Positions 3,210-28,647 of a DNA stretch of 64,000 bases are shown one piece after another. The DNA is from Candidatus Kapaibacterium sp. Its GTDB lineage: Bacteria > Bacteroidota > Ignavibacteria > Kapaibacteriales > UBA4661. A program made the translations under genes and the position numbers. Below the pieces are notes generated by a model. That model was not told the DNA's origin. It worked only from the letters and a program-made list of their open reading frames with translations, and made no database searches. The stretch spans positions 1 through 64,000 of the forward strand of contig JANYIG010000093.1 in assembly GCA_025358765.1 (NCBI GenBank), given 5' to 3'. The first letter of the stretch is position 1. Each line of letters starts with the position of its first letter.

Positions 3210-6200
3210 TTATTTCACAATCTGCAACGGTTTCATATCGAATACAGAACCAGCATACAAACGATAGAAGTACATTCCGTTCGGCAACGTACTCACATCC
3301 ACCGGAAGCGTGTATGTGCCTGCTGTCTGGGTTGTATTCACGATCGTCATCACCGATTGACCAAGCAGATTTACGATTTCTAATGTTACCACGGCTTGCC
3401 CCGTAAGAACGTATTCAAACGTCATGCGCCCGTCGGACGGATTTGGGAAGGCATTCAGTTGTAACGCAAGGCGTTCTGCGTTCGTCGGTTCGGCTTTCAC
3501 GCTTGTTACCACGTCAGCCCGAAGAACGATTGTGCTGTCAATTTTTCCGTCGTTCTTGAAGTCAATATAAAGCGTAACGCCCGTTTTTCCGATGTCGCCA
3601 AAATTTTGAATAGCAAATGTATGTGCTTCATTTGCACCAACGTTAATACCTTTAAAATCTGAAGCATCTGCACCACGACTGAAATTAACATCATAGCGTT
3701 TTGCACTGCCATAATTAGTCACCACCACGTTTCCGCCGTCATTGAGCAAGCGCACGTCAAGCGAGTCATTAGCGGCAAGTGCCGTATTTTGTAGCCGGAC
3801 TACGTTTTCCCACTCTGCGTTGGGACCGAGCTTTGCAAGCGTCATCGAGAAGGCGGAACTTGCGCCGGATGAACGCACAGCAAAGAGGTCGTTACCAAAA
3901 TCTGCGGCAGCCACCTGCGGTTGATCGGTGGAACCAGCCTTCCAGCGCATATTTGCACTGAAGCGGTCAGCACTATTCACCGCAAGGGTGTTTTGGTCGT
4001 TTGTGTTCGCAGGTTTGAAGTTCACAGTGAGTGCATTCGTGGGCAGGCGCGGCAGAGAAAGTCCTATCGGTGCGGTCAGCGTTGCAACACTACTGCCGCT
4101 CAAGGGAATAATGGGAAATGCACCTTCAATCGTCTGGTCGCCGCCGAACAAGTCTTTTCCGGTGCTTGTCGCACTTCCACCTTGCGGCAGATTGACTGAA
4201 ACCTCCGGTTGTGCGCCGCTTGAGGTTTTGAAATAGACATTCACCGTACGATCCGGCGTATCGCCAACGGCTTGAATAATCGGACGACCGGTAAACGACA
4301 CAACTTTTTCGCCCGTGCCGACGTTATCGGGCATAAAGCCTTTGTTGCCGCCCCACGGCTGATTGGAGCCGGCCGTTGCATTCAAACCAGCATTGGGGTA
4401 AAGCCACGTATTTGCCGTCCGATTTACGACGATAGCCTTTGTCAAGTCACCGGGCCAGTTATTGTCGTAAACATAGAGGCTATCAATAATATTATTCGAG
4501 GCATCGCGGCTGCTGGTGATTTTGTACGGCACAACGGAGTGTCCGCCTTGAATCTGCGTTCCCACATAATTAAAAATCGCAATGCTTTGGTATTGATTGG
4601 GAGCTTGTCCCAGCATTTGACGCAGTGTTGTCACGGTTTGATTGGGCGTAATAGTAAAGTCGCGGTTCACAAACCCCTGATACGCTTGATGGCGGTTGAT
4701 AAGGGTGCGAATCTGGTTGTTGGGCTGCAAACTAAACGGCACAGCAGCATTATATGTGCCGATGTAATTGAATAGGCTCGACACCGTAAATCCATAACAC
4801 GAACCACCCCAGTCACTCGGCTGCCAAGCATTGATAATTTGTTGCGTTGGGATATTGTTGACATACACTGTGAACCCGCGCCCGACGGAGGCAGCAAAAT
4901 CATCCCAACTCGGCGATAAATCGGAACGAGTGGCTTTAGTACGAAACTCCACAGGGTATGTTGAATAAGGGGCTGCGTTGTAATTGATACTGCTCCAGTA
5001 CGCTGAGGGCCAGACGTTATTGTCACAATTACAAAAATTCCAACCATTACTCCGCGTAGCAAATGCCGATGATACGGTCGGGTCTGCCGGAGTGCTGGCG
5101 GCAAAAACACCCACGCTGCTCGTGATGCTCCCCGGAGCATTATCCACCGTCAACGTGTACGTGCCTGCTGGAGCGCTTGCCGGAACAGCAAACGAAGCCT
5201 GCATCGTCGTGGCTGTGCGGGAAGTAATCGTCCCCGTAATCGTCGTGGAGCCAGAGTTTATGCGTACAGCCGTTGCGCCGACAAAATTCGTGTTTGTGCC
5301 ATTCATCGTCAGCGTTGCTGTTTGCCCTATGGTTAATGTTGTCGGTGCTACCGATGCAATCACCACAGGCAATCCTACTTTGAAGCTCATCACTGGTGAC
5401 CAAGGACCACTTTGACCATTCACCGTTGCTCGCACTCGTGCAAAATACTGGGTTCCTGCAACAGTCAACGTTGAAAACCAGCTGCTGCTGAGTGACACAG
5501 ACGTACCCGTGATTGCGCTGCTGTTTTGGAAGAAGGATGTGAATTGTTGGTCGGTGCCGATGTTTATCGTGTAGCCCGATGCGCTGGCGATTGCCGTCCA
5601 GCCAAGCGTCACGGGCGTACCAAGAACAGTCGTTGACGACGAAGGCTGCGTAATAGTCGGAGCGCCTGCTACAGCGTTGCTGCTCGGTGGCGCAAATGTG
5701 TAGCTAATGTTCTGTGGTTTCACCGACACACTCAGTGGCACGGCAAAGCCTGAACCCGTCGTCGGGCTTGGACTCGACCATGCGCCAGTGCGAGCATTCA
5801 CGTCATTCGTCGTCGCCCCACGCAAGCCTACCTGCGGCGTTCGTTGGGTGAAGGTGCTTCCAAGCGAAAACGTGCCATATTCAAAATTGATGGCTCCATT
5901 TTCATTTAGCGTCATTTCCATCGTGAACGTACTATTGCTTGGGTCGCTATAAAAACCAAAGTTTTGCCACTGCACTATAAACTGGCGATTGGGTGCAGTT
6001 CCAATAGTTTTGGAGAAAACACTTCCTGTTGCTGTTCCCTTCAAATCCGCACCAAGCATAGCGATACAACCGCTCCCAATCGCATTTGCTATCGGAAAAC
6101 GATATACTTTGCCGCTTGGTGCTGCTGCGACCGTGCCAAAATACACCGCGCCGTTAGCATCTATCGTGAGCGACGTGTACGAAGCACCGTTGAACGAAAA

Positions 6201-6404
6201 CGCAAACCCAATGGAAACATTTGCATACAACTGATCGTCCACAGTCACCCCCGAACCGTGTGTTGTAGCGTTGTTGACATCAACCAAGCTTACTGCCGTC
6301 CCCGTATTAAATGTATAGGCGCTAATCTGCGCCCATGTCGTCGCCGTACCAAATACACCGAACATGCCGAAAATAAATGCCCAAAGTACCAAGCGTTTAC
6401 ACAT
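3210..6404 (-). CDS. Large secreted multidomain protein with Ig-like/IPT and FN3-like domains, papain-like cysteine-peptidase-like segment and T9SS type A C-terminal sorting domain
   Basis: Signal peptide MCKRLVLWAFIFGMFGVFGTATTWAQ; WGGSCYGF, GGHSVVPYKI, VYDNNWPG; C-terminus NAFPNPSDGRMTFEYVL...NGMYFYRLYAGSVFDMKPLQIVK. Confidence 0.75.
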   Translation of the reverse strand: MCKRLVLWAFIFGMFGVFGTATTWAQISAYTFNTGTAVSLVDVNNATTHGSGVTVDDQLYANVSIGFAFSFNGASYTSLTIDANGAVYFGTVAAAPSGKVYRFPIANAIGSGCIAMLGADLKGTATGSVFSKTIGTAPNRQFIVQWQNFGFYSDPSNSTFTMEMTLNENGAINFEYGTFSLGSTFTQRTPQVGLRGATTNDVNARTGAWSSPSPTTGSGFAVPLSVSVKPQNISYTFAPPSSNAVAGAPTITQPSSSTTVLGTPVTLGWTAIASASGYTINIGTDQQFTSFFQNSSAITGTSVSLSSSWFSTLTVAGTQYFARVRATVNGQSGPWSPVMSFKVGLPVVIASVAPTTLTIGQTATLTMNGTNTNFVGATAVRINSGSTTITGTITSRTATTMQASFAVPASAPAGTYTLTVDNAPGSITSSVGVFAASTPADPTVSSAFATRSNGWNFCNCDNNVWPSAYWSSINYNAAPYSTYPVEFRTKATRSDLSPSWDDFAASVGRGFTVYVNNIPTQQIINAWQPSDWGGSCYGFTVSSLFNYIGTYNAAVPFSLQPNNQIRTLINRHQAYQGFVNRDFTITPNQTVTTLRQMLGQAPNQYQSIAIFNYVGTQIQGGHSVVPYKITSSRDASNNIIDSLYVYDNNWPGDLTKAIVVNRTANTWLYPNAGLNATAGSNQPWGGNKGFMPDNVGTGEKVVSFTGRPIIQAVGDTPDRTVNVYFKTSSGAQPEVSVNLPQGGSATSTGKDLFGGDQTIEGAFPIIPLSGSSVATLTAPIGLSLPRLPTNALTVNFKPANTNDQNTLAVNSADRFSANMRWKAGSTDQPQVAAADFGNDLFAVRSSGASSAFSMTLAKLGPNAEWENVVRLQNTALAANDSLDVRLLNDGGNVVVTNYGSAKRYDVNFSRGADASDFKGINVGANEAHTFAIQNFGDIGKTGVTLYIDFKNDGKIDSTIVLRADVVTSVKAEPTNAERLALQLNAFPNPSDGRMTFEYVLTGQAVVTLEIVNLLGQSVMTIVNTTQTAGTYTLPVDVSTLPNGMYFYRLYAGSVFDMKPLQIVK

Positions 6405-6582
6405 AAAACCCCCTAATGACCTTGAATGAAAAGGATATGAATTGAATTTCAAAAAAATGGAGAAGGCTTCCTCCCTGAAAGCCGACATCAAAAGCAGTCA
6501 ATACGTAGTCAATAGCGACAAAGTACAAGAAAAACATGGTTTCTCCAATACTATATCGGGTAAAATTTGATGTGTGATGCTA

Positions 6583-26233: not shown

Positions 26234-27847
26234 TTACCGCTCTAACGATTTTAGCAACGACGCACGATTTCTTTTATCTGTCGCACGAATAGTGCCTGTG
26301 ATGGGTTTATCGGAATCGCTACGGCGTATAACGAAAAGTTGCGTTGATTCTTGACGGTCATCGTTGAACCGATAATCCCCCAAACGCTCGTTAATAGTGA
26401 CGTTGTTGGCTTTTGTAGCATCGAGCATGACGCGATTTTCCTGCCCATTCGCCTGCCCAAAACAGCGCGTTCGTACCAATAAAATCTTGTTTTCCGGTAT
26501 AATTTCCACAATTTCAGGCGGCGGGAAATCTTCCACCGGAATTGTCACCGTCTCGCCCGCCGAGCGTTGATTGACAAACCGCTCAAATACTAATGCCTTC
26601 CCAACATCGGACTCTTTTGGCGACCATGTAAACGATTCACCTTGCAAACTCGTGGAATAACGCACTCTGCCGCCGTTCTGCGGAGCGTCGGAGATCACGG
26701 CTTTCACTTCTTGGTTTGTTAAAAGCGGCAGTTTAGGGTCGAATTTATACGACATTCCCGGATACATCTTTGCCGGAAACTCTGGAGGCTGTAGCTGCGA
26801 CACGCGAACGGTAAATTGGGCGAATTTTTCTTTGCCATCGGAAGCACGAACGACAGATACGCGGACAGTCATCACATCTTTGCTGGGTGCTATGCCTTGT
26901 ACGCGGAGCGATATGTCCTGAATATCTGTCACGACAGCACTTCCAGGTCTTCCATTGCCTACGGACTGTAATGGAATAACTTGCGGTGGACGCTTGGTCT
27001 CGGTACGAAGGTTAAAATTGCCATAAACCCCAATGACGGTTTCCCATTGCTGCGAGGGTAATACGTCAATAGTAGAGTTTCTCGGTGCAAGCTCGAAGTT
27101 TCCGGGTTCGACGGGACGCATGGTGGAAAACGTTGGATTTCCATTGTTTATTCCATTATTCACGCCGTTGAAGGTTAGGGGAGGATTTCCAACAGTTCCT
27201 ATCGTTGCGGTACTGGTTTGGAGCGTACTGTCATTGAAAGCAAGCTGTGAAGCACTATCAAAAATCACATTTACCGTAAAGCTCGTTCGCGCAGTGTCGA
27301 GCGTGTTGGTTTCGTTGATAAGGCGTTGGAGTTTGTCGCGTAGCACTGGGTCAGTAATGCCCGTAGGAATGAGCAGTCGTGCGGTTGCCACGACCTGAAC
27401 GTTGAACATCTTATTACGTCGTGTTCCCAAATCCGGTTTCCACGAAAAGAGTGCCGTTCCAAGCCGCGAATCTTCTTGTACGTTAAAACTCCCAACGGAG
27501 CCTTTTTTTGCAGAAACGGAAATAACGTTTCGGAGCGATAAATCCTCAATCTGAAATTCGTAGTGAATATCCGTCACGTCGCCATTTGAAAAAATGGTAT
27601 TCAGCGAATCAAGAGCGACGATCTGCGGCGAACCACCGATGGTAACAAGCTGACATGTGAGCGACGTTCGTTCTGGTTGAATAAAAAACCGAGATTTCAT
27701 CAACTCCCGTGCGAGTGACGGATCGGTAGTGGGTGCTTTTTCGCGTTTGTTGGGCAAAAGCAAGAGCAGAGCGGCAAGATAGAGGATAAAATACACCTCA
27801 ATTTGCCGACGGGGGCGACGAGTGGATGATTTGCTGGAACTCTTCAT
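26234..27847 (-). CDS. Single-TM-anchored periplasmic Ig-like protein, candidate GldM/PorM-like T9SS motor subunit
   Basis: N-terminal TM VYFILYLAALLLLLP then long beta-rich ectodomain; 537 aa; ATGA overlap with the upstream GldL-like gene. Confidence 0.5.
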   Translation of the reverse strand: MKSSSKSSTRRPRRQIEVYFILYLAALLLLLPNKREKAPTTDPSLARELMKSRFFIQPERTSLTCQLVTIGGSPQIVALDSLNTIFSNGDVTDIHYEFQIEDLSLRNVISVSAKKGSVGSFNVQEDSRLGTALFSWKPDLGTRRNKMFNVQVVATARLLIPTGITDPVLRDKLQRLINETNTLDTARTSFTVNVIFDSASQLAFNDSTLQTSTATIGTVGNPPLTFNGVNNGINNGNPTFSTMRPVEPGNFELAPRNSTIDVLPSQQWETVIGVYGNFNLRTETKRPPQVIPLQSVGNGRPGSAVVTDIQDISLRVQGIAPSKDVMTVRVSVVRASDGKEKFAQFTVRVSQLQPPEFPAKMYPGMSYKFDPKLPLLTNQEVKAVISDAPQNGGRVRYSTSLQGESFTWSPKESDVGKALVFERFVNQRSAGETVTIPVEDFPPPEIVEIIPENKILLVRTRCFGQANGQENRVMLDATKANNVTINERLGDYRFNDDRQESTQLFVIRRSDSDKPITGTIRATDKRNRASLLKSLER

Positions 27848-28647
27848 CGTTGGCGGTTGATGTCCATCCGATTTGCCAGAATACTCTCTACTTCAATGCG
27901 GACAGCACGTTCGATTTCCTCGCGGTGCAACGACGCAGCAGACGCAGTGAACGATTGTACTGACGCATTAAACTGTTGCAACGCACGATTGGTTTCGGTG
28001 ATGGTACTTACAAATGCTGGTTGCGGCGATACAGCAAGCGCTGTTAGCCCCGTTAATTCTTTGATAGAATTGATAAGTTCATCTTGGCGACCTATCAATC
28101 CTGTGAGCGCATCTGCGATGTTGTCTAATTTATCCGCCATTGCCGCATAATCACTACTTATTTCGCCCACTTCGCCAATCAACTCCTGAATCTCACTTGG
28201 TTTTTCGTCTTCCGGCGCTTGCTCCATCTCAATGTCATCTGCTGGCGAGAAGAACATTACCACAAACAGCAGCACCAGCAAAAATGCCTCAAAACCAACA
28301 CTGGCAATCGCTATACGGCTGTCCACCACATCGGTGAAACGGTATGCGGCAATAACGAGTAGCAGCATAGCCGCACCAAGATAAACCAACGAATTCATTA
28401 CCGGAAAGTAGAACCGATTGATGATTTCCCGCATCCAAAGCGACGTTCCAGCAAACACACCAAGCGCGTGGAGGACGGTTACTTGAAATTTGCTATAGCG
28501 GTAAATCTCGCGGTCAAAGGTACAAAGCCGCCAGCACGTGAGCAATGCCGTGAAACCGCTGACTTGTTTTTCGTAGCGGAGTTCGCGGAACACGTCGCGC
28601 AACAAAGCGCGTCCGCGAGCGGTGGAGAGGGTTTGAATATGCTCCAT
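27844..28647 (-). CDS. Candidate GldL/PorL-like T9SS motor membrane protein
   Basis: SLVYLGAAMLLLVIAAYRFTDVVDSRIAIASVGFEAFLLVLLFVVMFFSPADDIE resembles the GldL two-TM core, including a Glu in the second TM helix, followed by a helical cytoplasmic-type region. Confidence 0.55.
   Translation of the reverse strand: MEHIQTLSTARGRALLRDVFRELRYEKQVSGFTALLTCWRLCTFDREIYRYSKFQVTVLHALGVFAGTSLWMREIINRFYFPVMNSLVYLGAAMLLLVIAAYRFTDVVDSRIAIASVGFEAFLLVLLFVVMFFSPADDIEMEQAPEDEKPSEIQELIGEVGEISSDYAAMADKLDNIADALTGLIGRQDELINSIKELTGLTALAVSPQPAFVSTITETNRALQQFNASVQSFTASAASLHREEIERAVRIEVESILANRMDINRQR

Follow-up and report, generated by a model that had tools for sequence, protein, structure and literature searches.

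Two overlapping genes of Candidatus Kapaibacterium sp. probably encode a GldLM-type motor of the inner membrane that would be driven by protons, a reading that draws on how the genes are arranged, on membrane topology, on conservation and on the similarity of the protein profiles to those of GldL and GldM. In Bacteroidota, GldL and GldM make up the proton-driven motor behind type IX secretion (T9SS) and gliding. We conclude that each genome has two or more GldLM-like motors and that this pair is one of them. The window, a stretch of 64,000 nucleotides of contig JANYIG010000093.1, belongs to a genome of 4.86 Mb in 362 contigs (G000). L, a predicted GldL-like ring subunit of 267 amino acids, is encoded on the minus strand at 27844..28647, and M, a predicted GldM-like axle or arch subunit of 537 amino acids, follows on the same strand at 26234..27847; both assignments combine the open reading frame, hydropathy, AlphaFold2 models, conservation and profile alignment by hhalign. 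The stop codon of L and the start codon of M overlap in ATGA (27844..27847), exactly as described in an earlier note made from the sequence alone. The same 4-base overlap is also the commonest layout in relatives, where L lies directly upstream of M in most of the loci examined; M is not beside L in a few loci, including several that have the closest L (L123, L124, L126 and L127). A DnaJ-type gene is located upstream of L on the same strand, and a gene for a TPR protein is located downstream of M in convergent orientation. Since the order, strand and near-overlap of L and M are kept across Kapabacteria, their pairing is not accidental.

L has two transmembrane (TM) helices by hydropathy, at residues 83-101 and 112-130. 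In the AlphaFold2 model of the monomer (mean pLDDT 89), helices span 64-104 and 110-132 and the tail at 152-266 is a coiled coil, in agreement with the earlier note, which had seen a core followed by a helical tail. The two-TM core, residues 83-131 (28255..28401, minus strand), was delimited by the hhalign blocks and by conservation, and is common to GldL, to the four-TM paralogs discussed below, and to the L proteins from other orders of the class. The N-terminal domain, approximately residues 1-64, is predicted to be cytoplasmic. The extra N-terminal segment of ~80 residues that the earlier note had remarked on is real and conserved, with G12, R13, G63, G67, E74 and R78 invariant in an alignment of 56 sequences. 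R78, Y89, G91 and E120 are likewise invariant across 56 sequences, and E120 is the glutamate of the second TM helix.

M has a single TM helix by hydropathy, at residues 15-33, in which Y19, F20, L22 and Y23 are invariant among 61 sequences. Its AlphaFold2 monomer model (mean pLDDT 87) starts with a single helix, after which come about four β-domains, so that the size, the single TM helix and the β-rich ectodomain anticipated for this protein are all borne out. Domain D1 of GldM is helical; in the model of M, the first unit of the ectodomain, which occupies the same place, is a β-domain. Residues ~261-450 match D2-D4 of GldM in profile alignment.

Neither protein is recognized by any Pfam or NCBIfam model that we searched. 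L has no match to the GldL model TIGR03513 at E<=1, and M matches neither TIGR03517 nor the Pfam domains of GldM. A Cyt_c_ox_IV identity for L (Pfam, E=5e-4) was rejected, as it falls under the gathering cut-off. Foldseek comparison of the L monomer model with PDB gave nothing significant and did not return GldL; the same search with the M model returned generic Ig-like chains, and GldM was not among them.

Profile-profile comparison gives the main evidence of kinship. Other genomes of the phylum supplied the GldL and GldM target alignments, and that of GldL absorbed three weak members of the f26 lineage (see below) in the course of iteration. With these targets, hhalign aligned L with GldL at P=1.2e-7 (probability 94) over the span from TM1 to TM2, and M with GldM at P=1.6e-5 (probability 79) over 164 columns, co-linear from D2 into D4. 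Reversed alignments gave P>=0.0065, and the lowest P among 29 unrelated neighbour families was 0.005. The relationship of the pair to GldL and GldM, proposed in the earlier note from the GldL core, thus lies beyond the controls, and the TM2 glutamates of L and GldL do line up as that note had said. Direct searches of PDB sequences by hmmsearch are less decisive. With the full L profile, GldL (7sax_C) comes up at E=2.8e-4, and nearly all of the better matches are coiled coils; the top ones, designed coiled coils and a chemoreceptor, were discounted because they stem from the tail. The two-TM core alone finds GldL at E=0.72, which is at noise level, so the tail contributes to the match of the full profile. 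For M, a profile made from one alignment reaches PorM only at E~0.9, and a larger M alignment, also at noise level, does not find it in PDB.

It is possible to read the GldM similarity as a fold-level resemblance among Ig-like domains and the pair as an unrelated couple of membrane proteins, and both the generic Ig-like chains returned by Foldseek and the marginal similarity at the HMMER level would fit such a reading. We consider it improbable. Other β-rich families, including pieces of PorU and cargo, align with M at P>=0.02, against 1.6e-5 for GldM; moreover, L matches GldL independently, and both gene order and topology are consistent between the two matches.

The pair shares with GldL/PorL and GldM/PorM (TIGR03513/TIGR03517; PDB structures 7sax and 6ey5) the L-M gene order, a protein with two TM helices, a TM2 glutamate and a helical tail, and a partner with a single TM helix and a periplasmic part made of β-domains that match D2-D4 co-linearly. 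It differs in the extra N-terminal domain of L, in the β-domain that stands in M in place of the helical D1, and in the lack of a match to the curated model of either protein. Unlike in gldKLMN operons, there is no gldK or gldN beside the pair: none is adjacent in the window, as the earlier note had observed, and the neighbourhoods of ~100 loci hold no conserved candidate. In its general architecture, a ring subunit with a single-TM partner, the pair also resembles the 5:2 motors of the MotAB, ExbBD and TolQR types, but L and M have no family match to these in Pfam or NCBIfam. GldLM itself is described as having no clear sequence homology to motors of the MotAB/ExbBD/TolQR type (PMC9389320).

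The mechanism that we propose takes its stoichiometry, proton coupling, rotation and periplasmic reach from the literature on GldLM. L would form a ring, by analogy a pentamer, in which E120 of TM2 would be the proton-carrying residue, while the coiled-coil tail and the N-terminal domain would lie in the cytoplasm. In Flavobacterium johnsoniae, E49 in TM2 of GldL is required for secretion and has been linked to proton harvesting (PMC8986121). M would be a dimeric axle with its TM helix inside the L ring, and its arch of β-domains would carry torque over the periplasm to a partner in the outer membrane. The outer-membrane machine driven by the pair may be T9SS export, adhesin movement, or something else.

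The phyletic distribution was studied in two samples, one of 249 genomes of the phylum, 20 of them from the same order (G000 included), and one of 41 genomes of the order. M is present in 41/41 genomes of the latter, and each of the five other genomes sampled from the family of G000 has it. In the phylum-wide sample it occurs in every same-order genome, G000 included, and in one genome of the same class outside the order. Most of the relatives retrieved by the L alignment carry the names Candidatus Kapaibacterium, Kapabacteria or Ignavibacteria bacterium. At one locus (L188), a second L-like stretch follows the first L, ~3 kb further downstream. A tree of the ~85-residue cores was weakly supported, and orthology was not judged from it.

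The same genomes carry T9SS. SprA, which the earlier note had suggested looking for, was found in each of the 20 same-order genomes of the phylum sample, among them G000, as well as in all of the listed genomes of the same class. Canonical GldL and GldM score over the curated cut-offs in none of the same-order genomes of the 249-genome sample and are also absent from the listed same-class genomes; in G000 the curated GldL model gives only sub-threshold matches. GldN (TIGR03523) is over its cut-off in 0/21 genomes and is not detected in the order. GldK (TIGR03525) is likewise over its cut-off in 0/21, with generic sub-threshold matches only, none of which is in G000; those in the order cover only the C-terminal part of the model and also occur in control genomes, and were rejected. 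A canonical gldKLMN operon elsewhere, which would have counted against the idea of the earlier note, was thus searched for, and none was found in G000 or in the order. A T9SS cargo is indeed encoded in the window, as that note had claimed: the 1093-residue protein at 3210-6491 has a type A sorting domain (TIGR04183, E=4.7e-9). The presence of SprA together with the absence of canonical GldLM fits the idea of a T9SS motor, yet it does not single out this pair.

Whether the pair alone powers T9SS export in Kapabacteria, functionally replacing GldLM, is a matter on which we lean slightly to the negative. In its favor, the pair is universal in the sampled order alongside SprA and in the absence of canonical GldLM, no other candidate here has periplasmic domains that match D2-D4 of GldM as those of M do, and the genome has a T9SS-tailed cargo. 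The pair itself, however, has no recognized T9SS neighbour (in the neighbourhoods of ~100 loci, no T9SS gene is recognizably conserved beside it), and there is a second GldLM-like set that is equally widespread, with four-TM paralogs of L in same-order genomes and an axle-like protein, M', in 41/41 genomes of the order.

In same-order genomes, the L profile additionally picks up one or two proteins of ~320-560 residues. By hydropathy they have about four TM segments, and the L core corresponds to the last two. In 12/19 loci, the larger of these paralogs immediately precedes the gene of a PorU-like C25 sortase (~1,720-1,930 residues), on the same strand and with a gap of 21-282 bp (L293, L305-L309, L311-L315 and L317). 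NCBIfam models identified the three sortases that were compared with them (E ~1e-60), and the others matched one of these three by phmmer. The four-TM paralogs of G000 are found on two contigs, G000:C214 (L286:5236-8732) and G000:C119 (L285:5667-7340). The one on G000:C214 is directly followed by M', a protein of 727 residues with a YFVLYLAVILELLIIIVERDEAE start and a YFVLY TM helix, and there is a second copy of M' in G000 at G000:C182. Two proteins with outer-membrane-barrel-like ends come after M' in 7/10 loci that were read at length (L345-L347 and L349-L352), and an OmpA-like protein is found further on in 6/10; VWA and OmpA domains are present in the one that was checked. The barrel-ended pair at L346 has no match in Pfam or NCBIfam. 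M', the barrel-ended proteins and the OmpA-like protein possibly make up an envelope-spanning motor operon.

The earlier note had described the pair as the T9SS or gliding motor of this lineage. Its kinship with GldLM stands on the strength of the profiles, but its status as the motor of the lineage is not supported, given that a second GldLM-like set is present and that the four-TM subunit of this set, not the pair, adjoins the PorU-like sortase. With about the same reservation as in the case of the pair, one may suppose instead that the four-TM paralogs and M' are the T9SS motor, and that the pair is a separate motor of the GldLM type, serving, e.g., adhesin movement and gliding or another envelope process. 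The PorU-like gene downstream of the four-TM paralog agrees with this, as does the similarity of the second set to operons from other orders of the class, which have SprA and no canonical GldLM: M' has a TM/ERDE segment in common with their M proteins (P=1.7e-9), and the second outer-membrane-like protein that follows M' matches one of those found there (Y2 vs f8Yb, P=1.7e-21). At the same time, the second set has little similarity to GldLM (P of 0.033 for M' vs GldM and of 0.0054 for the four-TM paralog vs GldL), no porU is found in the examined stretches beside the two large four-TM paralogs of G000, and genomic adjacency does not prove function. The match of M to D2-D4 of GldM speaks for the pair, and the linkage to the sortase speaks for the second set; both may be involved.

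L-M operons of other orders of the class were found at L295-L297, L299-L301, L303, L304, L323 and L324. Their L proteins have two TM helices with the same core, and L of the window matches them at P=4.7e-19. Their M proteins have the YF-LY TM helix, and M of L295/L296 matches M of the window in D2-D3 (P=4e-5). They differ from the pair in that L is mostly shorter and lacks the N-terminal domain, and in that genes for secreted and outer-membrane-like proteins continue the operon. Since L of the other orders matches L of the window, and their M has the TM/ERDE segment in common with M', divergent L-M motors appear to form a broad family in the class, with the window pair as one of its branches. 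Three L-M copies are present in one genome (G055), and the operon at L323 contains an L with about four TM segments.

Genomes of another lineage of the phylum (f26; L220-L222) also have a divergent GldL/GldM pair in the L-M order, intermediate in character, and some of their proteins match TIGR03513/TIGR03517 weakly. They are far closer to the canonical proteins than the window pair is (P=3e-44 for GldL and P=1e-12 for GldM). The f26 M differs from M of the window in having 380 residues and aligning from D2 right after the TM helix, apparently without D1. Domain D1 of GldM looks evolutionarily variable, judging from one structural model, in which M has a β-domain at this place, and one profile alignment, in which the f26 GldM starts at D2. 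Judging from these proteins together, an N-terminal domain can apparently be added to GldL, and D1 of GldM can apparently be replaced or lost.

The L/M pair would be a new, deeply divergent variant of GldLM. The claim of novelty is a weak one on the side of the literature, where a search by title and abstract, with subscription papers mostly outside its scope, returned nothing on these proteins or on a T9SS motor of Kapabacteria. A more far-reaching scenario, which we put forward as a speculation with somewhat less confidence than either assignment of the T9SS motor, is that Kapabacteria have at least two GldLM-like motors and belong to a class with an unrecognized family of such motors, including four-TM rings of MotA-like topology that are tied to the T9SS sortase; in that case, separate motors would power T9SS export and surface movement, and the four-TM proteins could be evolutionary intermediates linking GldL, with its two TM helices, to MotA-type rings, with four. 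The relation of GldLM to other 5:2 motors was left as future work in the 2025 phylogeny of MotAB (PMC12505986), and the pair and related sets supply intermediate sequences for asking this question. In the 249-genome sample, SprA is over the curated cut-off in 192 genomes, GldL in 59 and GldM in 59, so that most T9SS-bearing genomes are without a recognized motor. The pair and its related sets are concrete candidates for the missing motors of these lineages.
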